Source: an uncultured Tabrizicola sp.
GTDB lineage: Bacteria; Pseudomonadota; Alphaproteobacteria; Rhodobacterales; Rhodobacteraceae
Direction: 5' to 3'
Assembly (NCBI GenBank): GCA_937858255.1
Contig: CALLZQ010000001.1
Coordinates: 1-11,175 of the forward strand
Length of the DNA stretch: 11,175 bases
The notes under the pieces: generated by a model
The model's database searches: none
Seen by the model: the letters and a program-made list of their open reading frames with translations, nothing else
What the model was told of the DNA's origin: nothing
Part shown: positions 710-11,175 of the stretch, piece by piece
Layout: the number at the start of each line of letters is the position of its first letter
Numbering within the stretch: position 1 is the stretch's first letter
Position numbers and translations under genes: made by a program

Positions 710-3700
710 TTATTCGGCGGCCTCCAGCGGTTTCACCGGTCGCGGCCCGGCCATTGCCGCCAATTTGTCGCGCAGCGCCCGCTGCTCGGCATCCAAAAGG
801 GCGATCCGTTCGGCCAGAATGTCATTCGCCGGGCTTTCGGGTTCAGCCTCTTTCTTGCCGATGAAGCGGCCAAAGATCCACCCCATCAGCCGGCTGAGAT
901 CGTCCATGATCAGATAGAACGACGGGACAACCACAAGGCTGAGGACGGTGGACATGATGATCCCCCCGGTCACGGCAATGGCCATCGGCGCGCGGAAGGT
1001 GCCACCCTCGCCCACGCCAAGCGCCGAGGGCAGCATCCCCGCCGACATCGCGATCGAGGGCATGCCGATGGGACGCGCCCGTTTGTGTCCGGCCTCGCCC
1101 ACCGCCGCCGCGCGCGACATGCCACGTGCGCGCATCTCGATGGCAAAGTCGATCAGCAGGATGGCGTTCTTGGTCACGATCCCCATCAGCATCAGCATGC
1201 CGATCATCACCGGCATCGACAGCGGGTTGTTGGTCAGGATCAGCGCCGCCGCAACCCCACCGATGGCCAGCGGCAGCGAGAACAGGATGGTAAAGGGCTG
1301 GATAACCGACCGGAACAGCAGGATCAGCACCGTCAGCACCAGAATCAGGCCCATCACCATGGCGTTGACAAAGCTGGAGACCAGTTCGATCTGCACCTCG
1401 GCATCGCCACCCGGCTTGACCTGCACCCCGGGGGGCACATCGACGGTGGCCACGATCTCTTCGAACCGTTTGGTCGCGGTGTCGAGCGGCACACCTACAG
1501 GCAGGTCGGCGCCGATGGTGGCAACGCGCTGGCGATTCAGACGCTTGACCGTCGCCGGCCCCTCGGCAATCGCGATATCGGCGACGACTGACAGCGGCAC
1601 TGCTGCACCTGTCGCCGTCGGCACCTTGAGCGCAGCAATCCGCGACAGGTTTTCGCGCGTGGCATCGTCCAGCCGCACCCGCACCGGGATTAGCCGGTTG
1701 TCGATAGACAGCTTGGCCAATGCGGCGTCATTGTCGCCGATGGTCGCGACGCGAACCACCGCGGCGATGGTGGCAGTCGTCACACCCAGCCGCGCGGCCT
1801 CTTCGGCGCGAGGGGTGATTTGGATCTCGGGCCGGGGCAGCGAGCTTTCGGTCGAGACGTTGATCAGCAGCGGCTTTTCGGCCTTTTCCTCTTCCGAGAG
1901 GGCCCGTTCCAGCCGGGCAATCGCGGTATTCAGGTCATCCTCATCAGGCGAGAGGATGTTATAGGACACAGGCCGCCCACCCGCGCCGGGACCACCGAGT
2001 TTGAATGCCAGAATATCGGGCACATTTGACAGGCGGGCAAAGACCTCGGCCTCGATCTCAACCTGCGGACGGACACGGCCCGCACTCTCATGCTTGGGCA
2101 GCATCGGGCCGACGACCGGCAAGGCGATCGCCAGATCCATCAGCTTTTTCTCCAGCCCGTTATCCAGACGGTCAAGCACCACGATCATATTGGCACGGCG
2201 GATATCGACATCGCCAAGCGGAGAGGCGCCGCCGATGGTCAGCACCCGGTCAATCCCGTCCACATCGGCAATGGCCTGACGCATCGCCTCGGTCGTACGG
2301 CGGGTGTCGTCCAGCGTCGAGCCGGGCGGCAGTTCAACCGAGATGGCAAAGCGGCTTTCATCATCCGGCGGGAACAGGCTGCCGGGCACCTGAAGCATGA
2401 AGTAGACCGAGACGATCACCACACCGATGGCCCCGACCAGCGTCAGGTAATAGGCCGGAAACCGCAGCTTCTTGAACCCAGGGATGCGGGGCGAGGCGGT
2501 GGTGTGCTTCACCAGCCAGAGATAGCCGCGCATGAACGGCCCCTCTTTGTGATCCTCTTCGACCGCATCCTTGGCCCGCATCAGATAGGCCGCCATCATC
2601 GGCGTGATCAGTCGCGCGACCAGCAGCGAGAACAGCACGGCGATGGCCACAGTCAAGCCGAATTGCCGGAAATACTGCCCCGGAATCCCGGGCATGAAGC
2701 TGACCGGCACAAAGACCGCAACGATGGTCATCGTGGTTGCGATCACCGCAAGACCGATTTCGTCGGCGGCCTCAATCGCGGCGCGGTAGGGCGTCTTGCC
2801 CATGCGGATATGTCGGGCGATGTTCTCGATTTCCACAATCGCGTCATCGACCAGAATGCCTGTCGCCAGCGTCAGCGCAAGGAAGCTGACGAGGTTCAGC
2901 GAAAAGCCGATCATATCCATGAACCAGAAGGTCGGCACCGCCGAGAGCGGCAGCGCCACCGCCGAAATCAGCGTCGCCCGCCAGTTCTTGAGGAAGGCCA
3001 GCACCACCAGAACCGCCAGAACCGAGCCCTCGATCAGCGTGCTGAGTGCGGCCTCATAATTGCCCTTGGTATAGAACACGGCGTCATCGACAACCTTGAT
3101 CTCGACCTCAGGATGGGCAGCGCTGACCTGCGCCAGTGCGGCCTCGGTCGTTTCGGCCACGCTGACCTCAGAGGCACCCTTGGAGCGGTAGACGGAAAAG
3201 ACGACAATCGGTTCACCGTCCGAAGTCGCGAAAGAGCGCTGTTCCTGATAGGTGTCGATCACCTCACCCAGGTCGGTCAGCCGCCCCTTTTCGCCCGAGG
3301 GCGGGGCGAGGGACATGCTGGCCAGTTGCTCGACCGTGCCCTGATCGCCAAGGGTGCGGATCGACTGCTCGCCCCCGCCGATTTCAGACCGGCCAGAGCC
3401 GATATCGACGTTGGTGGCCTTGATTTGCTGGCTGACGGCTAGGGCAGTAATGCCATAGCTGCCCAGTTTCACCGGGTCGAGGACGATGGGGATCTCGCGG
3501 TCTGCGCCGCCGTAGCGGTCCACCCGGCCGATCCCGGCCTTGCCCTGAAGCGCGCGGGTGATGGTATCGTCAACGAACCACGACAATTCCTCCAGCGTCA
3601 TTTCCGGCGCTGAAACGGCAAAGGACAGGATCGCCTGCCCCTCAACCTCGATCCGGCTGACCACGGGCGCCTCGATATCGCCGGGCAGATCGCCGCGGAT

Positions 3701-4042
3701 CCGGTCGATGGCGTCCTTTACGTCCTGCACGGCGCGGTCGGTTGCAATCTCCATGCGGAATTCGACCGCGGTGGTCGACAGCCCGTCATTGACGGTCGAG
3801 GTGACGTTCTTGACGCCGGTCAGGCCGGCGACGGCATCCTCGATTTCCTTGGTGACCTGTGCCTCAAGCTCGGCCGGCGCTGCGCCCGGCTGCACCACCG
3901 AGACGGCGACCAGCGGCACGTCGATATTCGGGAAACGGGTGATCGGCAGAGAGTTAAAGCTCTGCCAGCCCATCACCATGAAGATGATAAAGGCAAGGAT
4001 GGGCGCAATCGGATTGCGAATGGACCAGGCGGAGAAGTTCAT
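710..4042 (-). CDS. RND-family multidrug efflux pump, inner-membrane permease (HAE1/AcrB-type)
   Basis: This is the proton-driven inner-membrane trimer subunit of a tripartite efflux system. The 1110-residue protein (family usually 1020-1060) has the RND layout: TM1 near residues 10-28, a periplasmic porter loop, TM2-6 (about 336-490), a second porter loop (about 555-890) and TM8-12 (about 893-1055). The proton-relay residues are present: adjacent Asp399-Asp400 in TM4 (GILVDDAIVEIEN) and Lys958 in TM10 (GIVTKNAILLIDF). The double Asp and the lack of metal-pump motifs favour the hydrophobe/drug (HAE1) branch over CzcA. I chose the ATG at 4042 over one 57 nt upstream because the family begins MNFSxWSIRNP and GAGGGGG (4048-4054) lies 5 nt before it, overlapping the stop of the upstream adaptor gene. 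About 50 residues after TM12 form a charged, helix-prone tail (heptad-like near 1074-1100) that many relatives lack. A Pro stands where AcrB has Thr978. The substrate cannot be told. Confidence 0.96.
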   Translation of the reverse strand: MNFSAWSIRNPIAPILAFIIFMVMGWQSFNSLPITRFPNIDVPLVAVSVVQPGAAPAELEAQVTKEIEDAVAGLTGVKNVTSTVNDGLSTTAVEFRMEIATDRAVQDVKDAIDRIRGDLPGDIEAPVVSRIEVEGQAILSFAVSAPEMTLEELSWFVDDTITRALQGKAGIGRVDRYGGADREIPIVLDPVKLGSYGITALAVSQQIKATNVDIGSGRSEIGGGEQSIRTLGDQGTVEQLASMSLAPPSGEKGRLTDLGEVIDTYQEQRSFATSDGEPIVVFSVYRSKGASEVSVAETTEAALAQVSAAHPEVEIKVVDDAVFYTKGNYEAALSTLIEGSVLAVLVVLAFLKNWRATLISAVALPLSAVPTFWFMDMIGFSLNLVSFLALTLATGILVDDAIVEIENIARHIRMGKTPYRAAIEAADEIGLAVIATTMTIVAVFVPVSFMPGIPGQYFRQFGLTVAIAVLFSLLVARLITPMMAAYLMRAKDAVEEDHKEGPFMRGYLWLVKHTTASPRIPGFKKLRFPAYYLTLVGAIGVVIVSVYFMLQVPGSLFPPDDESRFAISVELPPGSTLDDTRRTTEAMRQAIADVDGIDRVLTIGGASPLGDVDIRRANMIVVLDRLDNGLEKKLMDLAIALPVVGPMLPKHESAGRVRPQVEIEAEVFARLSNVPDILAFKLGGPGAGGRPVSYNILSPDEDDLNTAIARLERALSEEEKAEKPLLINVSTESSLPRPEIQITPRAEEAARLGVTTATIAAVVRVATIGDNDAALAKLSIDNRLIPVRVRLDDATRENLSRIAALKVPTATGAAVPLSVVADIAIAEGPATVKRLNRQRVATIGADLPVGVPLDTATKRFEEIVATVDVPPGVQVKPGGDAEVQIELVSSFVNAMVMGLILVLTVLILLFRSVIQPFTILFSLPLAIGGVAAALILTNNPLSMPVMIGMLMLMGIVTKNAILLIDFAIEMRARGMSRAAAVGEAGHKRARPIGMPSIAMSAGMLPSALGVGEGGTFRAPMAIAVTGGIIMSTVLSLVVVPSFYLIMDDLSRLMGWIFGRFIGKKEAEPESPANDILAERIALLDAEQRALRDKLAAMAGPRPVKPLEAAE

Positions 4043-4052
4043 CGCCGCCCCC

Positions 4053-5234
4053 TCAGTTCGTCGCAAGGACCGGATTGATCCGGTCGCCGTCACGGACAAA
4101 GGCGCCGGCCTTCACCACCACCTGATCGCCGGGGGCAAGGCCCTCGACAATCTCGACCCAGCCGCCGTCGCGGATGCCCAGCTTGACCGGCACCCGGCTG
4201 ACGGTGCCATCTGTCACCTTCATCACCGCCGCCCCCTCGGGCGAAGAGCCGACCGCCGTGACCGGCACGGCCAGCGCCTCGGTTTCGGTCACCAGAATTT
4301 CGGCATCGACAAACATGCCCGACCGGACCTTGGCTGAATCGTCAATGGCGATCCTGGCGCGACCCAGCCGGGTATTGGCATCGATGGTCGGCTCGACCAG
4401 ACGGATCGTGCCGGTCAGCACTTCATCGCTGCCCACCAGACGCAACTGCGCCTTTTGCCCGATGGCCAGACGCAAGAGATCGGTTTCCGAGACATCGGCC
4501 TTCAGTTCCAGCGCGCCGTCGCGGATCATCGAGAACATCGGCGACCCCGCTGCCGAGGCGACCGCGCCGATCACCGCGTTGCGGGCGGTGATCTCACCGG
4601 CCACGGGGGCCTTCACCTCGGTCCGGCTCAGTTGCAGATCGACATTGGCCAGTTGCGCCTCAACCAGCGCGAGTTGCGCTCGCGCGGCCTCCAGCGACTG
4701 TGTGGCAACGGTGACGCGGGCCGTGGCGGCGATGGCATTGGCGCTGGCCGAATCCGCTGCCGCCTGCGAGGCCGAGCCCTGCTGGCGCAGTTTCGAGGTC
4801 CGCTCGGACACCCGCTGGGCCTCATCGGCTGAGGATTTCGCCTCGAGCATCTGGGCCTCTGCCTGTGCAATCGTGGCCTTGGCCGAGGCGAAAGAGGCGT
4901 AGAACTGGCTGCGTTGCAATTCCAGCGTGGTCTTTGACAGAACTGCCAGCACCTGCCCCTCTGTCACATCGTCGCCCACATCGGCCAAAAGCCGTTCAAT
5001 CGGCTGGCCTTCGATCAGCGGGGCGACCTGAATCATCTCGACGGGCGAAATCAGGCCGGTTGCCACCACCCGGTCCGACATCTTGCGCGGCACGATTGTG
5101 GCGACGGTGATCGAGGGCAGAGTCTGCGCCGCAGCAGGTGCGACATCGGTCGCGGCGGCGGCAGCCTCGGCCAGAACAGGAGAGGAAAGCGTCACAGCAG
5201 CAAGAAAGGTCGTGGCAATCAGAACGGAACGCAT
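4053..5234 (-). CDS. RND efflux periplasmic adaptor (membrane fusion protein)
   Basis: This periplasmic adaptor links the RND permease to an outer-membrane channel. The 393-residue protein starts with an Sec signal (MRSVLIATTF... ending VLA at 20-22, probable cleavage before Glu23). No lipobox Cys is present, so it is not a lipoprotein of the AcrA type. Next come a lipoyl half-motif (about 67-102), an Ala/Gln/Glu-rich alpha-hairpin coiled coil (about 103-203), the second lipoyl half (TEVKAPVAGEI, 205-215), a beta-barrel domain (about 241-315) and a membrane-proximal domain (about 320-390). The start is set by AAAGG at 5243-5247, 8 nt upstream; this Shine-Dalgarno lies within the last two codons of tetR, so translation is probably coupled. 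No outer-membrane factor gene is in the operon, so a TolC-like channel must be supplied from elsewhere. Confidence 0.96.
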   Translation of the reverse strand: MRSVLIATTFLAAVTLSSPVLAEAAAAATDVAPAAAQTLPSITVATIVPRKMSDRVVATGLISPVEMIQVAPLIEGQPIERLLADVGDDVTEGQVLAVLSKTTLELQRSQFYASFASAKATIAQAEAQMLEAKSSADEAQRVSERTSKLRQQGSASQAAADSASANAIAATARVTVATQSLEAARAQLALVEAQLANVDLQLSRTEVKAPVAGEITARNAVIGAVASAAGSPMFSMIRDGALELKADVSETDLLRLAIGQKAQLRLVGSDEVLTGTIRLVEPTIDANTRLGRARIAIDDSAKVRSGMFVDAEILVTETEALAVPVTAVGSSPEGAAVMKVTDGTVSRVPVKLGIRDGGWVEIVEGLAPGDQVVVKAGAFVRDGDRINPVLATN

Positions 5235-5238
5235 CGGT

Positions 5239-5853
5239 TTAGCCTTTCACGGCGGGCAAAGTGATATCTTCTAGAAGTCGGTCGATGGTGCGCAGCACCA
5301 AACGTTGCAGATCGGCGGCGTCGGGCAGATCGGGGCGGCGCATCGCACAGCTTTTGACCATCATGACGATCATCCGGGCATGGCTGCTCCAGCGGCCATG
5401 GGCCTCATCCGGCGAAATCTGGGTCGCACGGGCAAAAACCCTGACCATATGAGACACGATCTCATCTTCCATACGGCAGGATAACTGGGCGATTTCGGGC
5501 TTGCGCAGCGAGGCGGCGTTGATTTCGGCCCAAAGCTGCCCCTCGCCCTGACATCTCGCCTCGTCGATCCTGTCGGCAATCTTGCGCCGCAACGCGCCCA
5601 TGAGGTCGTCTTCCTCCAGCAGCGCGGCAAAATCCTGCTCAAGTTCGACAAGGCTGCGCTCGATCAGCGCGGCGACGATGGCGGCCTTGGAAGGGAAGTA
5701 GCGGTAAAAATTGCCGACGCTCATCCCGGCCGAGCGGGCCAGATCCTGCATCGAGGCGCCGTCGAAACCCTTGCTGGAAAAGGCGACAGACGCCCCTTCG
5801 AGGATTTCCGAAGTGCGCTGATCAAAAGCGGTGACAGGCCGTGGCTGACTCAT
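5239..5853 (-). CDS. TetR-family repressor, first gene of the efflux operon
   Basis: This is a predicted ligand-responsive repressor of its own efflux operon. The 204-residue protein has an N-terminal TetR DNA-binding domain: helix 1 near 13-29, then a helix-turn-helix ending in the family's SVGNFYRYFPSKAAI stretch (about 45-59). An all-helical ligand/dimer domain fills residues 60-200. I start it at the ATG at 5853 (MSQPRP); an in-frame ATG pair at 5881-5886 would put the start inside the operator palindrome and downstream of no good Shine-Dalgarno. The Shine-Dalgarno for 5853 is also weak, so the start remains uncertain. The stop lies 4 nt before the adaptor start. Leading its own pump operon with an operator at the promoter is the AcrR-like autorepression arrangement; the inducer is probably a pump substrate (inference). 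Confidence 0.93.
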   Translation of the reverse strand: MSQPRPVTAFDQRTSEILEGASVAFSSKGFDGASMQDLARSAGMSVGNFYRYFPSKAAIVAALIERSLVELEQDFAALLEEDDLMGALRRKIADRIDEARCQGEGQLWAEINAASLRKPEIAQLSCRMEDEIVSHMVRVFARATQISPDEAHGRWSSHARMIVMMVKSCAMRRPDLPDAADLQRLVLRTIDRLLEDITLPAVKG

Positions 5854-5864
5854 GTCGCAACCCG

Positions 5865-5882
5865 TGAATGAACGTTCATTCA
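5865..5882. promoter_or_regulatory. TetR operator: perfect 18-bp palindrome
   Basis: TGAATGAACGTTCATTCA is an exact inverted repeat (9-bp arms, no spacer) 12 nt upstream of the preferred tetR start. Palindromes of this size and the TGAAT/ATTCA arm type are typical TetR-family operators. Its place between the candidate -10 and the start codon would let a bound dimer block the whole tetR-adaptor-pump operon. The palindrome is read directly; the binding protein is inferred from adjacency. Confidence 0.85.
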
Positions 5883-5911
5883 TCACTTGTGCGACTCTAG
5901 GGAAAGGTCAA
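5883..5911 (-). promoter_or_regulatory. Candidate promoter of the tetR-RND operon
   Basis: On the minus strand a TTGACC -35 box (bases 5906-5911) is followed after 17 nt by AAGTGA (5883-5888) as a poor -10. If it is used, transcription would begin inside the operator palindrome and leave a leader of roughly 20 nt before the ATG at 5853. The -10 matches the consensus badly, so this is a suggestion only. Confidence 0.35.
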
Positions 5912-6016: not shown

Positions 6017-6199
6017 TTATCCGAAGAGGGTGGTGATCCCCCAGAACCACAGCGCCGCACCCACCAAGACTGATGGCACGATCCAGACCCCCGCAAGGGT
6101 CCCCTCATCGCGTGTCGGGTCCAGATCGTCATACATGCAAGGACGGATTGGGCGGTCCATGACCAGGGCGAGCGGCTTTTCGGCTGTTAGTATCTGCAT
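6017..6199 (-). CDS. Small single-span membrane protein, unknown function (60 aa)
   Basis: I do not recognise this 60-residue protein. Its polar N-terminal half (1-35) contains one Cys (21) and an acidic patch (DDLDPTRDEG, 24-33). One hydrophobic helix follows (about 36-58, with WIVPSVLVGAALWFWG), ending two residues from the stop. The helix plus short tail suggests a tail-anchored or N-in/C-out inner-membrane peptide. The frame extends upstream to another ATG at 6298, but the strong Shine-Dalgarno GAGGAGG (6208-6214), 8 nt before the ATG at 6199, fixes the start. The dedicated intrinsic terminator downstream supports it as a real, separately transcribed gene. Small subunits or regulators of respiratory or transport complexes often look like this, but nothing here ties it to one. 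Confidence 0.75.
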   Translation of the reverse strand: MQILTAEKPLALVMDRPIRPCMYDDLDPTRDEGTLAGVWIVPSVLVGAALWFWGITTLFG

Positions 6200-6395
6200 C
6201 TCGCGGCCCTCCTCTTCGTGACACCACCTTACGACTTGGGCGCAAACAAAGGCATCCGGGCAAAAGGATTGTGGCCTATCCGGTCGGATTGACACCATCA
6301 GTCAAAGGTCTGGGTCAGGGCCGTTTCAGCCGGGTCAGGCCGGCGCCGGGGGCGGAACGCTGGTCGGCCAGCCCGCCCGCGCCGAATCGCGGCGG

Positions 6396-6830
6396 TCACA
6401 CCAGACGCAAGAGCAGCGCCGTCAGCGTTGCGCGTTCAGACGCCGACAGGGGGTCCAGCGTGCTGGCCGATACCGCCAGCGCCTTGCCGACAACCTGCGC
6501 ATAAAGCGCCTCTCCCTCGGCAGAGAGGGCAACGGTCAGGCGGCGACGGTCCTCGGGGTCGGGGGCTGTCGTGACATAGCCTTGCCGGGTCAGCCGGTCG
6601 ACCACACCTTTGATCGTCGCGGCATCCATGGCAGTTTCCCGGCCGAGCAGGTTTTGCGACAGCGGCCCCAGTTGGCGCAGCCGCGCAAGGACAGCGAACT
6701 GGGTGGTGGTGACTTGCGGGATCGCCTCGGAAAAGATCGCCAGATGCCGTTGTGTGACGCGCCGCAAGATGTAGCCGATCTGGTCATCAAGCAGATAGTC
6801 GGGCAGCGAGGCTGGGTCAGTCTTTTCCAT
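6396..6830 (-). CDS. MarR-family transcriptional regulator, divergent from the Mo-hydroxylase operon
   Basis: The 144-residue protein has the MarR fold throughout: N-terminal dimer helix (DDQIGYILRRVTQRH, about 15-29), winged helix-turn-helix with LSQNLLGRETAMDAATIKGVVDRL (57-80) as helices 3-4, a wing with the conserved DPEDRRRLTVALS (91-103), and a C-terminal dimer helix. It is transcribed away from the molybdenum hydroxylase and reductase genes across a 170-bp repeat-rich region. It most likely represses that operon and is relieved by the substrate or an intermediate. The N-terminal region resembles regulators of aromatic and nicotinate catabolism such as NicR, by my recollection of that family; the ligand is inferred from neighbours. 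The Shine-Dalgarno before the ATG at 6830 is weak (GGGG). No clear terminator follows: the 6340-6372 inverted repeats lack a T tract. Confidence 0.93.
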   Translation of the reverse strand: MEKTDPASLPDYLLDDQIGYILRRVTQRHLAIFSEAIPQVTTTQFAVLARLRQLGPLSQNLLGRETAMDAATIKGVVDRLTRQGYVTTAPDPEDRRRLTVALSAEGEALYAQVVGKALAVSASTLDPLSASERATLTALLLRLV

Positions 6831-6888
6831 ATCCCCGGATTACCCCCCAGCCCCTCGCGGCGCAAGGCGTTGCGGTTTGCCCGCGTGG

Positions 6889-6944
6889 TATCAGCCCCAT
6901 CGACAGTATCAGACCCGTTGACAGAGGGCCGCAAGGGGCCGCAA
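6889..6944. repeat. Two sets of short tandem direct repeats in the divergent promoter region
   Basis: Two abutting 18-bp copies, TATCAGCCCCATCGACAG (6889-6906) and TATCAGACCCGTTGACAG (6907-6924), differ at three positions. Immediately after them GGGCCGCAA occurs twice at a 10-bp offset (6926-6934 and 6936-6944), i.e. one helical turn apart. Both lie between marR and the hydroxylase operon. They could be regulator sites on one face of the helix or a local duplication. Confidence 0.6.
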
Positions 6945-6947
6945 ACT
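6918..6947 (+). promoter_or_regulatory. Candidate promoter of the Mo-hydroxylase / reductase operon
   Basis: A consensus -35 box TTGACA (6918-6923) is followed after 18 nt by CAAACT (6942-6947), a partial -10 that keeps the A2 and T6 positions. Transcription would start near 6954, about 45 nt before the preferred ATG at 7001. The -35 arises from the second 18-bp repeat. On the opposite strand TTGCGG (6929-6934) and GATACT (6905-6910), 18 nt apart, could serve marR, so the two promoters would overlap. Confidence 0.45.
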
Positions 6948-6970
6948 GATTTGCACACAAACAAGTTTGC
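6941..6970. promoter_or_regulatory. Candidate MarR operator: nested inverted repeats
   Basis: This 30-bp AT-richer pocket in a GC-rich region holds several overlapping inverted repeats: GCAAA-CTGA-TTTGC (6941-6954), CAAAC-AA-GTTTG (6958-6969), and outer 7-bp arms GCAAACT (6941-6947) / AGTTTGC (6964-6970). It overlaps the candidate -10 and transcription start of the hydroxylase operon, the expected place for repression by the divergent MarR protein. The repeats are read directly; which arms are bound is unknown. Confidence 0.5.
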
Positions 6971-7000
6971 CGGGGCTACCGCCCTTGGGTGAGAGGTCTT

Positions 7001-7834
7001 ATGAACGCCTATGCCCGCCCGACCAGCCTTGATGCGGCACTGGCCCTGCTGGGCGAGGGGCCGCGGCAGATTCTGGCAGGCGGGACCGATCTTTATCCGG
7101 CTGCCGGGCAGCGTCTGGCCGGGCCGGTTCTCGATCTGGCGGGGATTGCCGATCTGCGTGGGATCAGCCTGTCGCAACAGGGCGGATTGCGCATCGGGGC
7201 CTGTACCCCCTGGACCGAGATTGCCGAGACCGCCTTGCCACCGGCCTGCCGTGCGCTGCAACAGGCCGCGCGTCAGGTTGGCGGGCGGCAGATTCAGAAT
7301 CTGGGGACGCTGGGGGGAAATCTGTGCAATGCCTCGCCCGCAGCCGATGGGGTGCCGCCTCTGCTGGCGCTAGAGGCAATGGTGGAGCTGGCGGGGCCGG
7401 CAGGACGCCGCGGTCTGCCCCCTTCCCACTTTATTGTCGCGCCCCCCCCGACCCCCCCCCGCGCCCCAGAGCTGCTGATAGCCATCCGTATTCCGCCCGA
7501 GGGGCTGCGGGGCACATCGGCCTTTCTCAAACTTGGTGCCCGCGCCTATCTGGTAATTTCAATTGCCATGGTCGCGGTCCGTGTTGTGATGCAAGGGGAT
7601 CGTATCGGCTCTGCCAGTCTGGCGGTGGGCGCCTGTGCCGCCACCGCGCGGCGATTGCCGGGGGTTGAGGCGGCGATTGCCGGGATGTCTGTCGAACAGG
7701 CTGCCGCCGAAGTGACCGAGGCACTGGTTTCCCCCGGGCTTTCCCCGATTGACGATGTGCGTGCAAGCGCCGCCTACCGCCAGAGGGCGGCGGCGGAACT
7801 CTTGCGCCGCGCGCTGCGCGAGGCTGTGGCATGA
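7001..7834 (+). CDS. Molybdenum hydroxylase FAD-binding subunit (CoxM/XdhB-type; probable nicotinate dehydrogenase)
   Basis: This 277-residue subunit carries the FAD that passes electrons from the iron-sulfur clusters to an acceptor in a xanthine-oxidase-family enzyme. Diagnostic FAD motifs are AGGTD (26-30) and TLGGNLCNASPAAD (103-116); the C-terminal CoxM-type domain runs from about 175 (LGARAYLVISIAMVAV) to the end. I prefer the ATG at 7001, which gives the family-like MNAYARPTSLDAALALL and has GAGAGG at 6991-6996; a GTG at 6989 is the alternative. The stop overlaps the next start as ATGA, so the subunits are translationally coupled. Oddity: residues 147-154 (APPPTPPR) replace the usual glycine-containing GPGRT/GYGKT-like segment and are encoded by C8-GA-C9 (7442-7460), possible slippage or sequence error. 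Substrate is inferred from the following genes. Confidence 0.93.
   Translation: MNAYARPTSLDAALALLGEGPRQILAGGTDLYPAAGQRLAGPVLDLAGIADLRGISLSQQGGLRIGACTPWTEIAETALPPACRALQQAARQVGGRQIQNLGTLGGNLCNASPAADGVPPLLALEAMVELAGPAGRRGLPPSHFIVAPPPTPPRAPELLIAIRIPPEGLRGTSAFLKLGARAYLVISIAMVAVRVVMQGDRIGSASLAVGACAATARRLPGVEAAIAGMSVEQAAAEVTEALVSPGLSPIDDVRASAAYRQRAAAELLRRALREAVA
7442..7460 (+). repeat. Double poly-C tract (C8-GA-C9) inside the FAD-subunit gene
   Basis: Seventeen of 19 bases are C, in runs of 8 and 9. The frame is kept, and codes for Pro-Pro-Pro-Thr-Pro-Pro-Arg with flanking bases. Runs of this length are prone to polymerase slippage in vivo and to calling errors. Confidence 0.8.
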
Positions 7835-10491
7835 TCGAATTTACCCTCAACGGTCAGCCTGTCAGCGTCGATGCTGAACCCGCTGCGCGCCTGACCGAGG
7901 TGCTGCGCGACGGGCTGGGCCTGACCGGAACCAAGGTGGGCTGCGATGCGGGAGATTGCGGCGCCTGTACGGTTCTGCTGGACGGGGCGCAGGTTTGCGC
8001 CTGTTTGGTGCCGGCTGGCCGGGCCTCGGGCCGCCATGTCGAGACCGTGGAATCCGCTGCCGCCGATCTTGACCGGCTGAAGGCTGCCTTCCTGCGCCAC
8101 GGCGCTGCCCAATGCGGGATCTGTACCCCCGGCATGCTGATGGCAGGTGCCGATCTCTTGCGGCGCAATCCGCATCCGGCCGAGGCCGAGGCGAAGGAGG
8201 CGCTGGGCGGCGGACTGTGCCGCTGCACCGGCTATCGCAAGATCCCGGCGGCGGTTGGTGATGCCCCGCCCCCGCCGCTGCCCCAGACGGCACAGGTCGG
8301 CGATGCGATTGCCCGGCTTGACGGGCAGGCCAAGGTTGCGGGCGATCTCTTCGGCGCCGATCAGGTGCCGCAAGGGGCGCTGACCCTGATCGCGGTGCGC
8401 TCGCCCTATCCGCATGCTGCCTTTACCATTGGTGATCTGGCCGGATTTACCGCCCGCCCGGGCGTCGCCGCCGTTTTCACCGCCGCCGATATCCCCGGCC
8501 GCAATAGCTTTGGCGCGATCCCAGCCTTTGCCGACCAGCCGGCCATTGCCGCCAGCCCGGCCCGGTTTCGCGGCGAATGCGTGGCGCTGATCGCCTTTGA
8601 ACCGGGCGTCCTGCCAGATAGCGCGGGCTTTCCGATCGAATGGCAACCGTTGCCGGCCCTGAACACCCCGGCCGAGGCCGAGGCCGAGGGCGCCCCACTG
8701 TTGCATCCCACCCGCGCCGGCAATCGGCTGATCGAGGGGCGGATCACCAAAGGCAATGCCGCCGCGGCGATGGCCGGCTGCGCCGTCGTGATCGAGGGCC
8801 GGATGCAGACCGGTTTTGTCGAACATGCCTATATCGAGCCTGAGGCCGGCTCAGCCTGGCTAGAGGGTGAGACACTGGTGATCCGGGCCTGCACACAGGC
8901 CCCGATCATGGATCGCGATGAAACCGCGCAGGTGCTGGCCCTGCCACCCGAGAAGGTGCGGATCATCCCCACAGCCGTCGGCGGCGGCTTTGGCTCAAAG
9001 CTGGATGTCAGCCTGCAACCCTTGCTGGGTCTGGCCGTGCTGCGCACCGGCCGGCCGTGCCGCATGGTCTATTCCCGGGCCGAGAGCATGGCCTCGACCA
9101 CCAAGCGCCACCCGGCGGAAATGTCGGGCCGCATCGGCTGCGATGCCGAGGGGCGCATCGTCGCGCTGGAGTTCGAGGGGCGGTTCAACACCGGCGCCTA
9201 TGCCAGTTGGGGGCCGACCGTCGCGAACCGGGTGCCGGTGCATGTCTCTGGCCCCTATCTGACGCCGCATGTCAGTGCGGCGGCGCGGGCCGTGCATACC
9301 CATGGTCCGGTCTCAGGCGCCTTCCGTGGCTTTGGCGTGCCGCAGGCCGCGCTCTGGCAGGAAACCATCTATGACCGGCTGGCCGACCGCCTGGGTATTG
9401 ACCGGCTGGAGTTCCGCCTGCGCAATGCCCTGCGTGATGGTGACGCCACCGCTACCGGACAGATCCTTCAGGGTGCCGGTATTGCCGCCTGCCTCACCGC
9501 GCTGCGCCACGCATGGACAGCGGCGCTGGCCCGGGCCAAACAGCATCCCGGGCACGGTGTCGGTATCGCCTCTTGCTGGTATGGTTGCGGCAATACTTCG
9601 CTGCCCAACCCCTCGACCATCCGTATCGGCCTTAGCCATCAGGGCCGGGTGGTGCTGCACCAAGGCGCGACCGATATCGGCCAGGGGGCGAATACGGTCA
9701 TCACACAGATCGCGGCGACGGCCCTGGGCTTGCCGCTGGAGGATTTCGACCTGATCGGTCCCGATACCGCGCTGACCCCCGATGCCGGCAAGACCTCGGC
9801 CAGCCGTCAGACCTTTGTCACCGGTCGCGCCGCCAAGGCGGCGGGCGAGGCGCTGCGCGCGCATCTGCTGCGACTGACCAATGCCGGTGCCGGCGCCACC
9901 CTTGCCCTGAAGGGCACGCATCTGACCGCCAGCGAGGGGGCCGAACGGCGCAGCGTCGATCTGGCCAGCCTGCCAACCGATGATCTGGGCTATGCTGTCT
10001 CGGCCGAAGATACCTATGACCCGCCAACCGGCGCGCTGGACGAAAATGGCCAGGGCCGCCCCTATGCCCAATATGGCTATGGTGCGCAGATGGTTGAACT
10101 GGCAGTGGATCAGGCGCTTGGCACCATCCGCCTGATCCGCATCACAGCGGCCCATGACGTCGGCCGCGCCATCAACCCGCAACTCGCCACCGGCCAGATC
10201 GAAGGTGGCATCGCCCAAGGGATCGGCCTCGCCCTGATCGAGGAATATCTGCCCGGCCGTACCGAAAATCTGCATGATTACCTGATCCCGACCATCGGCG
10301 ACGTGCCCCCGATCGACAGCCTTTTGATCGAAATCCCCGATCCCGAAGGCCCTTTTGGTGCCAAGGGCCTTGGTGAGCATGTGCTGATCCCGACGGCACC
10401 GGCCATTCTTAACGCCATCCGCCACGCCACCGGGGCCGAAATCGACCGGGTGCCTGTCCTGCCGCATCGGCTGATACAGGCCATGAAATGA
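7831..10491 (+). CDS. Molybdenum hydroxylase: fused [2Fe-2S]x2 + molybdopterin catalytic subunit (probable nicotinate dehydrogenase)
   Basis: This 886-residue protein combines two subunits that are separate in CoxS/CoxL or NicA/NicB enzymes. Residues 1-~140 are the iron-sulfur part: plant-type cluster Cys38, 43, 46, 58 and second cluster Cys95, 98, 130, 132 (QCGICTPG, CRCTGY). From ~157 follows the molybdopterin-cytosine-dinucleotide part: GGGFGSK (384-390), GAFRGFG (497-502 region), GATDIGQGA (612-620), SASRQTFVTGRA (656-667), EGGIAQG (791-797) and GAKGLGE with the catalytic Glu849. The CO-dehydrogenase active-site loop AYRCSFR is absent, so it is not form I CODH. No signal peptide or cytochrome c domain is seen, unlike NicB of Pseudomonas putida; it is probably cytoplasmic. 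GAGG at 7820-7823 serves as Shine-Dalgarno. The layout resembles Desulfovibrio Mop, but with a separate FAD gene upstream. A hydroxylase of an N-heterocycle is near certain; nicotinate (giving 6-hydroxynicotinate) is inferred from the next gene. Confidence 0.93.
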   Translation: MIEFTLNGQPVSVDAEPAARLTEVLRDGLGLTGTKVGCDAGDCGACTVLLDGAQVCACLVPAGRASGRHVETVESAAADLDRLKAAFLRHGAAQCGICTPGMLMAGADLLRRNPHPAEAEAKEALGGGLCRCTGYRKIPAAVGDAPPPPLPQTAQVGDAIARLDGQAKVAGDLFGADQVPQGALTLIAVRSPYPHAAFTIGDLAGFTARPGVAAVFTAADIPGRNSFGAIPAFADQPAIAASPARFRGECVALIAFEPGVLPDSAGFPIEWQPLPALNTPAEAEAEGAPLLHPTRAGNRLIEGRITKGNAAAAMAGCAVVIEGRMQTGFVEHAYIEPEAGSAWLEGETLVIRACTQAPIMDRDETAQVLALPPEKVRIIPTAVGGGFGSKLDVSLQPLLGLAVLRTGRPCRMVYSRAESMASTTKRHPAEMSGRIGCDAEGRIVALEFEGRFNTGAYASWGPTVANRVPVHVSGPYLTPHVSAAARAVHTHGPVSGAFRGFGVPQAALWQETIYDRLADRLGIDRLEFRLRNALRDGDATATGQILQGAGIAACLTALRHAWTAALARAKQHPGHGVGIASCWYGCGNTSLPNPSTIRIGLSHQGRVVLHQGATDIGQGANTVITQIAATALGLPLEDFDLIGPDTALTPDAGKTSASRQTFVTGRAAKAAGEALRAHLLRLTNAGAGATLALKGTHLTASEGAERRSVDLASLPTDDLGYAVSAEDTYDPPTGALDENGQGRPYAQYGYGAQMVELAVDQALGTIRLIRITAAHDVGRAINPQLATGQIEGGIAQGIGLALIEEYLPGRTENLHDYLIPTIGDVPPIDSLLIEIPDPEGPFGAKGLGEHVLIPTAPAILNAIRHATGAEIDRVPVLPHRLIQAMK

Positions 10492-10510
10492 AACGGGCCG
10501 CCCCTTCATC

Positions 10511-10557
10511 TGTTCAAATATATCCTCGGGGGGTGAATGGCCGCAGGCCAGAGGAGG
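10511..10557. other. Intergenic stem-loop element, possibly a dispersed Rhodobacteraceae-type repeat
   Basis: Within the 97-bp gap between hydroxylase and reductase genes, an AT-rich lead (TGTTCAAATATATCCTC) precedes TGGCC-GCA-GGCCA (10538-10550), itself flanked by CCTC (10524-10527) and GAGG (10551-10554), giving a bulged compound hairpin. The combination 'TTCAAATAT..CCTCGGGGG' plus a GCA-loop hairpin recalls an intergenic motif I have seen repeatedly in Rhodobacteraceae sequences. There is no T tract, so it is not a standard terminator. The AGGAGG at 10552-10557 is 31 nt from the reductase ATG, too far to be its Shine-Dalgarno. Confidence 0.4.
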
Positions 10558-10588
10558 CCAGACATCCCGCCGCAACCGGACCACGACC

Positions 10589-11175
10589 ATGACCCAGCCG
10601 CCCGAGAAAATCCGCTGCGATGCCTGCCCGGTCATGTGCTATATCGCCCCGGGCCAGACCGGCGCCTGCGACCGCTATGCCAATGACGCCGGGCGCATCG
10701 TGCGGACCGACCCGGTGGTGATGCTGTCGCATACGGTTCAGGCAGGCGGGCGTCTTGTCCCTTTTGCCGCCCGCGACTGGGATGGTGAGCCCTTTCCCGA
10801 CGATACTTTCGTGACGGGCATCGGCTCGGGAACCACCTATCCCGATTACAAGCCAGCCCCCTTTATCGTCGCGTCAGAGGTTGAGGGCGCCGATATGGTC
10901 ACTGTGGTGACAGAGGCCATTTTTTCCTATTGCGGCGTCAAGGTGAAGATCGACACCGACCGCTTTCTGGGCCCCGAGGGCGCCACTGTCCGCGCCGGGG
11001 GCGAGGCGATCGGCCATGTCACCACCGCCGAATATGGCAGTCAGATGCTTTCTCTCGGCGGGGTGCATCACCTGACGGGCGGCTCAAATCCCGAGGGCCC
11101 GCTGACCTGCCCCAGCCTGCTTGCGCTGTGCAATGGCGGGGCGGGGGAGCTGGCCAAAGCCAGCGGACCGAACCC
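10589..11175 (+). CDS. hnr: 6-hydroxynicotinate reductase, N-terminal 195 residues (3' end outside window)
   Basis: I recognise this as the family annotated 6-hydroxynicotinate reductase (EC 1.3.7.1), which reduces 6-hydroxynicotinate to 1,4,5,6-tetrahydro-6-oxonicotinate with reduced ferredoxin. The visible part has an N-terminal four-Cys iron-sulfur motif, CX2CX3CX9C (Cys10, 13, 17, 27; IRCDACPVMCYIAPG then TGACDRY), then a conserved stretch VTEAIFSYCGVKVKIDTDR (107-125), TTAEYGSQMLSLGGVHHLTGG and TCPSLLALCN. The frame is open to the right edge; relatives are, as I recall, around 480-500 residues with further Fe-S ligands C-terminally. The ATG at 10589 has only a weak GGA 8 nt upstream, but gives the family-like start. 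It lies 97 bp after the Mo hydroxylase on the same strand, matching the next step in the reductive nicotinate pathway. Recognition is from memory of the family, so the exact reaction is less certain than membership. Confidence 0.78.
   Translation, partial: MTQPPEKIRCDACPVMCYIAPGQTGACDRYANDAGRIVRTDPVVMLSHTVQAGGRLVPFAARDWDGEPFPDDTFVTGIGSGTTYPDYKPAPFIVASEVEGADMVTVVTEAIFSYCGVKVKIDTDRFLGPEGATVRAGGEAIGHVTTAEYGSQMLSLGGVHHLTGGSNPEGPLTCPSLLALCNGGAGELAKASGPN

Follow-up and report, generated by a model that had tools for sequence, protein, structure and literature searches.

A probable operon for nicotinate use by ring reduction in an uncultured Tabrizicola, with HyuAB and UPF0280 as candidate ring-opening and flavin-handling proteins

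The window analysed here, a stretch of 11,175 bases from an uncultured Tabrizicola sp., is the entire contig C1 of a draft genome of 875 contigs that is 83% complete. A MarR family regulator gene (6396-6830, minus strand; Pfam MarR_2, 1.3e-11) is divergent from an operon whose genes lie on the plus strand. The gene for the FAD subunit of a nicotinate dehydrogenase (6989-7834; FAD_binding_5, 5.6e-37; CO_deh_flav_C, 1.5e-16) possibly starts at 7001, where the match to its counterpart in Fuscovulum ytuae (64% identity) begins, and it overlaps by 4 bases the gene of a fused 2Fe-2S/molybdopterin subunit of 886 residues (7831-10491; Fer2, Fer2_2, Ald_Xan_dh_C, MoCoBD_1 and MoCoBD_2). Within the latter, the motif WYGCGNT (residues 583-589; 9577-9597) aligns with W12-Y13 of the medium Mo subunit of Eubacterium barkeri. 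The contig end cuts the gene of a 6-hydroxynicotinate reductase (Hnr; 10589-11175), leaving the first 195 of about 480 residues, which include the iron-sulfur motif CX2CX3CX9C (10616-10669) and the strongly conserved loop GSGTTYPDYKPAPF (residues 79-92; 10823-10864), a stretch of low-confidence structure prediction and a candidate flavin site through Thr82/Thr83. The window MarR is 69% identical to the one at the equivalent place in F. ytuae, and a MarR gene is present in 105 of 141 well-flanked Hnr loci; counts over these 141 loci leave out seven loci whose Hnr is identical to another, one without Hnr, the window itself and L159. The left neighbours of the operon are genes for a TetR regulator, an HlyD-type adaptor and an RND permease (710-5886, minus strand), whose relatives stand beside the nicotinate operon in up to eight distinct same-genus loci (duplicates removed by eye), such that the RND efflux pump may be an old neighbour. 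Between TetR and MarR lies a 93-codon ORF (6017-6298, minus strand) with no Pfam or NCBIfam match, and the C-terminal part of a heavy-metal P-type ATPase (2-640) runs off the left contig end.

The Hnr fragment is 85.9% identical over 184 residues, far beyond chance, to a protein annotated as 6-hydroxynicotinate reductase on a plasmid of F. ytuae. This identity and the Pfam domains bear out the original prediction that a MarR regulator, a xanthine-oxidase-family hydroxylase and an Hnr sit together, and the N-terminal cysteine motif that it described is exact (C10-X2-C13-X3-C17-X9-C27), the four cysteines being invariant in 17 and in 73 aligned Hnr proteins. The fragment sits inside the proteobacterial Hnr tree, with 57-86% identity to the loci compared, and the organism names noticed in a protein search were alphaproteobacterial (among the matches listed, the best 120 of 7999, which included no Firmicute Hnr). 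Its placement relative to the E. barkeri Hnr rests on the published 42% identity between that enzyme and the Hnr homolog of strain SG-6C (PMC3511419). Hnr was found once in its own genome; the full-length protein matched no Pfam or NCBIfam family, and no relative was found among solved folds. Like the E. barkeri enzyme, the window Hnr may reduce 6-hydroxynicotinate in a ferredoxin-dependent manner. Counts that each include the genome of the window put Hnr in 23 of 61 relatives (one of them, G029, with a broken copy), 32 of 398 genomes of a phylum-wide sample and 68 of 385 of a class-wide sample; species genomes encode it in at least 588 stretches.

As the window is a whole contig, it was extended to the right via relatives and via other contigs of the same genome. 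The plasmid of F. ytuae, the nearest named relative, and all ten same-genus stretches compared (L028 to L037, each ~19.5 kb long) share the gene order FAD, Mo/Fe-S, Hnr, UPF0280, DUF1185, a membrane protein of ~457 residues, an ABC transporter of the branched-chain-amino-acid type and HyuA, with HyuB after HyuA wherever the stretch reaches far enough. In the same genome as the window, contig C603 opens at its edge with a match to Hnr residues 444-470, followed by UPF0280, DUF1185, the membrane protein, a binding protein and LivH. Contig C447 has a segment that matches HyuB residues 411-558 (74% identity), lies next to a gene read as gyrB from its translation and stops short of the zinc ligands. 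The nicotinate-type HyuA was not found in this genome (best match 36%). On these sequences, the operon is present in the genome but split by the assembly. A second HyuA/HyuB pair on contig C515 (L287) resembles the nicotinate type only distantly (about 30-36% identity). The ~457-residue membrane protein beside DUF1185, for which no Pfam or NCBIfam family was matched, occurs in 40 of the 141 loci, usually before the transporter (L022:16897-18270; on C603, L159:2375-3820). In G029:C28, Hnr and UPF0280 are both broken by stop codons, as if the module had decayed as a unit.

The fused Mo subunit corresponds to subunits S, L and M of E. barkeri nicotinate dehydrogenase (NDH) joined in one chain. 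When it was searched by halves, the nearest solved relatives of both halves were chains of that enzyme (3hrd), with 251 bits against 147 for the next structure and 198 against 143. We take the substrate-pocket residues of the E. barkeri enzyme to be Gln208 and Phe353 of the large subunit and Tyr13 and Glu289 of the medium subunit; all four positions are identical in the alignments, such that the Mo subunit is of the E. barkeri type in its nearest relative and in its pocket. All 98 long Mo subunits compared from such clusters, a set that counts the window, the query and some duplicate loci, have WYG.GNT around Tyr13. The FAD subunit shows no specific closeness to NDH: the E. barkeri subunit 3hrd_C matches it at 5.8e-20, ninth of 13 by E-value, and is outscored by CO dehydrogenase subunits. 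The fused Mo enzyme had a match in 120 of the 141 loci, at least three of them only 27-28% identical; a NicA/NicB-type enzyme was found in 15, none of which also has the fused enzyme, and neither type in six. A nicotinamidase-like gene, so labelled from a reading of its sequence, is present in 34 of the 141 loci (40 of 139 before duplicate removal), in HyuA-type and enamidase-type clusters alike. The E. barkeri-type NDH, the Hnr motif and this gene make nicotinate catabolism by ring reduction, as originally proposed, the best reading, which is also backed by the enamidase, found in 25 of 54 Hnr genomes of one set and 29 of 68 of another, and by the published Bradyrhizobiaceae cluster. Some loci carry additional genes: a Rieske-type oxygenase (VanA_C) that may add a second substrate in 13 of the 141 (for example, L025:16064-17131 and L027:15544-16614), and, divergent from the FAD gene, a flavin oxidoreductase-like protein of about 720 residues by sequence reading (L037:3646-5808 and 16 other loci, some duplicate).

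An enamidase gene had been expected to the right, and this expectation was not borne out. The amidohydrolase of many Hnr clusters is an enamidase: it matches E. barkeri Ena (2vun) with 361 bits and E 1e-106, against 33 bits for the next match. Matches in other genomes are 61-85% identical; at E 1e-60, none was found in the 83% complete genome of the window or in its 11 Hnr-bearing genus mates, all 11 of which have HyuA, the HyuB piece being what this genome holds. Among 54 Hnr genomes (23 from the relatives and 31 more from the phylum sample), 27 had HyuA only, 23 enamidase only, two both (G182 and G253) and two neither (the draft of the window and G029, with its broken Hnr), at cut-offs of at least 60% identity to the cluster type for HyuA and 61% or more for enamidase. 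Neither gene was found in 26 genomes without Hnr (best HyuA 48%); 14 control genomes were dropped from the comparison set. The class sample, which shares seven genomes with the 54, gave 36 genomes with HyuA, 29 with enamidase, none with both and three with neither among its 68 Hnr genomes (the cut-off for HyuA being 54% and that for enamidase 60%); those three are draft genomes 83, 70 and 86% complete, the first being that of the window. HyuA at 54-60% was found in six of the 317 class genomes without Hnr, enamidase in one and HyuA at 50-53% in three more, and Fisher values for the class-sample pattern are inflated by the relatedness of the genomes. By locus, HyuA is present in 56 of 141, enamidase in 27 of 141 and both in 0 of 189. 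Four genomes of one family (f186: G532, G625, G708 and G778) have a HyuA 58-60% identical to the nicotinate type without Hnr, which may reflect another substrate or Hnr loss, and G504 holds an enamidase 74% identical to the query (G504:C8:32009-33178) with no Hnr at threshold. On a quick Hnr tree of 104 rows, enamidase changes at least eight times, five of these forced by well-supported branches; eleven loci (dense groups thinned), G076 (split), G639 (partial), G023 (cut), G029 (broken) and G773 were left out. A sign test on this tree is circular, as rows with both or neither gene were omitted, so the count of switches is used alone; a separate pair test on three pairs is without power.

The motifs of HyuAB are those of an ATP-dependent lactamase. 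DxGGT, DMGGT and GxxPGP are present in 41, 42 and 42 of 42 HyuA proteins from related clusters, and D39, H103, D106 and H128 of the F. ytuae HyuB, the one sequence compared, correspond to the CapB zinc ligands D41, H99, D102 and H124. Mutating the four zinc-binding residues of CapB abolished caprolactamase activity (PMC8453981), and OplAB opens delta-valerolactam, likewise a six-membered lactam (PMC11033972). HyuAB thus resembles caprolactamase CapAB and oxoprolinase OplAB in its two subunits, ATP motifs and four zinc ligands, and differs from them in its operon and presumed substrate; HyuA scores 474 of the 1000 bits required by the NCBI caprolactamase alpha model. Most likely, HyuAB would perform the ring-opening step of the enamidase at the cost of ATP, since the near-strict either/or pattern and the repeated switching fit one shared step.

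A homologous nicotinate cluster was described in 2012 for Azorhizobium caulinodans (AZC_2804-2790), Bradyrhizobium, Rhodopseudomonas and SG-6C, a Bradyrhizobiaceae strain whose cells degrade nicotinate through 6-hydroxynicotinate, and that cluster holds genes for the first three pathway steps (PMC3511419). The original prediction saw a puzzle in ring reduction by an aerobe; with both route and cluster in print for aerobic alphaproteobacteria (PMC3511419), it is no surprise. We infer that the two unknown proteins of the published cluster are UPF0280 and DUF1185. Compared with A. caulinodans and SG-6C, the hydroxylase here has its 2Fe-2S and Mo parts fused in one chain and its FAD subunit separate, and the presumed third-step enzyme is HyuAB, not an enamidase. 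In E. barkeri and A. caulinodans, reduction to a tetrahydro lactam is followed by hydrolytic opening to formylglutarate (PMC9304392). The window shares with E. barkeri a Mo enzyme closest to its NDH, the Hnr family and, in sister clusters, the enamidase; unlike in E. barkeri, the NDH subunits S, L and M are fused and no enamidase was found in the genus. Alhapel reportedly dealt in 2006 with the nicotinate fermentation of E. barkeri. As for the ferredoxin source that the original prediction had sought, a ferredoxin-NADP-reductase-like gene turned up in 27 of the 141 loci (17 with HyuA and 8 with enamidase in that locus), which suggests NADPH as the electron source in those strains; the ten same-genus stretches showed no such gene.

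We put at roughly 0.8 the probability that the window carries the promoter-proximal half of an operon by which nicotinate is used aerobically through ring reduction, with HyuAB opening the ring and UPF0280 loading flavin. MarR would sense a pathway compound and the LIV-type ABC transporter would import nicotinate, which the FAD and Mo/Fe-S enzyme, judging from homology and active-site identity, would hydroxylate to 6-hydroxynicotinate. Hnr, a presumed Fe-S flavoprotein, would reduce this to 1,4,5,6-tetrahydro-6-oxonicotinate, a six-membered lactam, as homology and the published pathway indicate. In the genus, the lactam would be opened not by an enamidase but by HyuA/HyuB, an ATP-dependent lactamase with two subunits that belongs to the oxoprolinase/caprolactamase family, HyuA activating it with ATP and HyuB hydrolysing it at the zinc site; the enamine from HyuAB would lose ammonia to give 2-formylglutarate, and this hydrolysis, releasing the ammonia, may be spontaneous or involve DUF1185. 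We propose that UPF0280, with its ApbE fold, loads the Hnr flavin or attaches it covalently. A more specific version, which we offer tentatively and at clearly worse than even odds, has two interchangeable forms of the pathway, one with the hydrolytic enamidase and one with ATP-driven HyuAB, whose ATP cost would pull the unfavourable ring reduction, and an Hnr matured by UPF0280 as a flavinyl transferase, probably at Thr82/Thr83.

The replacement of enamidase by HyuAB could also mark a different ring product, with the cluster degrading another N-heterocycle such as a pyridine or pyridone carboxylate, the specificity of the Mo enzyme and Hnr shifted, and HyuAB opening a different lactam or imide. 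The Rieske-type oxygenase genes in 13 of the 141 loci and the resemblance of HyuA to N-methylhydantoinase, oxoprolinase and caprolactamase would agree with such a substrate; however, both locus types share Hnr, UPF0280, DUF1185 and, for the most part, the Mo enzyme, the type switches at least eight times on the Hnr tree, the nicotinamidase-like gene belongs to both cluster types and the NDH pocket residues are conserved, and we regard this explanation as improbable. Somewhat less improbable, though still unlikely, is that HyuAB acts on a later or side product and that ring opening in HyuAB-type strains falls to a hydrolase not recognised as such. HyuAB is tied to ring opening by genome co-occurrence only, DUF1185 has no assigned step, and the E. 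barkeri enamidase also removes ammonia (PMC9304392), which HyuAB chemistry alone leaves unexplained; against this, the two types are nearly mutually exclusive (both in 0 of 68 and in 2 of 54 genomes) and have switched repeatedly, as fits one shared step, and the enzyme family of HyuAB acts on cyclic amides.

For the role of UPF0280 the odds are more even. Its gene is very tightly linked with that of Hnr, and the predicted model of a relative's UPF0280 (L101) has the ApbE fold, matching 19 ApbE-type entries over about 210 of 281 residues at 13-18% identity; both observations favour a flavin transferase acting on a presumed flavoprotein. Unlike ApbE flavin transferases, UPF0280 matched no family in a Pfam search and shares only this low identity with them; presumably it lacks the usual ApbE histidine motif, and its invariant residues around ATSG..GRS appear to differ from those of ApbE. 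As it belongs to a UPF0280/DUF375 branch together with a Desulfovibrio protein (2o34), and as ApbE relatives bind flavin nucleotides, it could instead serve Hnr structurally or in electron transfer, or carry flavin non-covalently, a serious contender whose chances we put a little short of even. UPF0280 is probably a flavin-handling helper that nearly always travels with Hnr. The E. barkeri Hnr is said to carry covalent flavin, and we hypothesise that the flavin attaches at Thr82/Thr83 of the TTYPDYKP loop; both threonines are invariant in 73 of 73 aligned proteins, and residues 77-99 of the predicted L101 Hnr model have pLDDT below 50. A search of the open-licence literature found no paper on UPF0280, the DUF375 matches among those listed being by prefix only and seemingly unrelated. 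DUF1185, whose role is conserved, has solved relatives (3byq and 2qtp) with a chorismate-mutase-like fold, and its label of amino acid synthesis came partly from neighbouring branched-chain amino-acid transporter genes (DUF1185 structure paper). This label is open to question, since transporter genes of that type accompany nicotinate catabolism in the clusters seen here.

The evidence suggests that the window adds a member to a known pathway, and that the variant which uses HyuAB and is partnered by UPF0280 is probably new; no paper joining 6-hydroxynicotinate with hydantoinase was found in the open-licence literature, which speaks only weakly for novelty, and a paper on Paraburkholderia phymatum (PMC5979394) mentions nicotinate once and hydantoinase three times. 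Although nicotinate breakdown by reduction is commonly presented as a feature of anaerobes, 68 of 385 sampled genomes of the class hold Hnr. For a step that lacks an assigned gene in about half of the Hnr genomes, the either/or pattern supplies a candidate enzyme; it also suggests a function for UPF0280, and a HyuAB group now named hydantoinase or oxoprolinase would gain a function.
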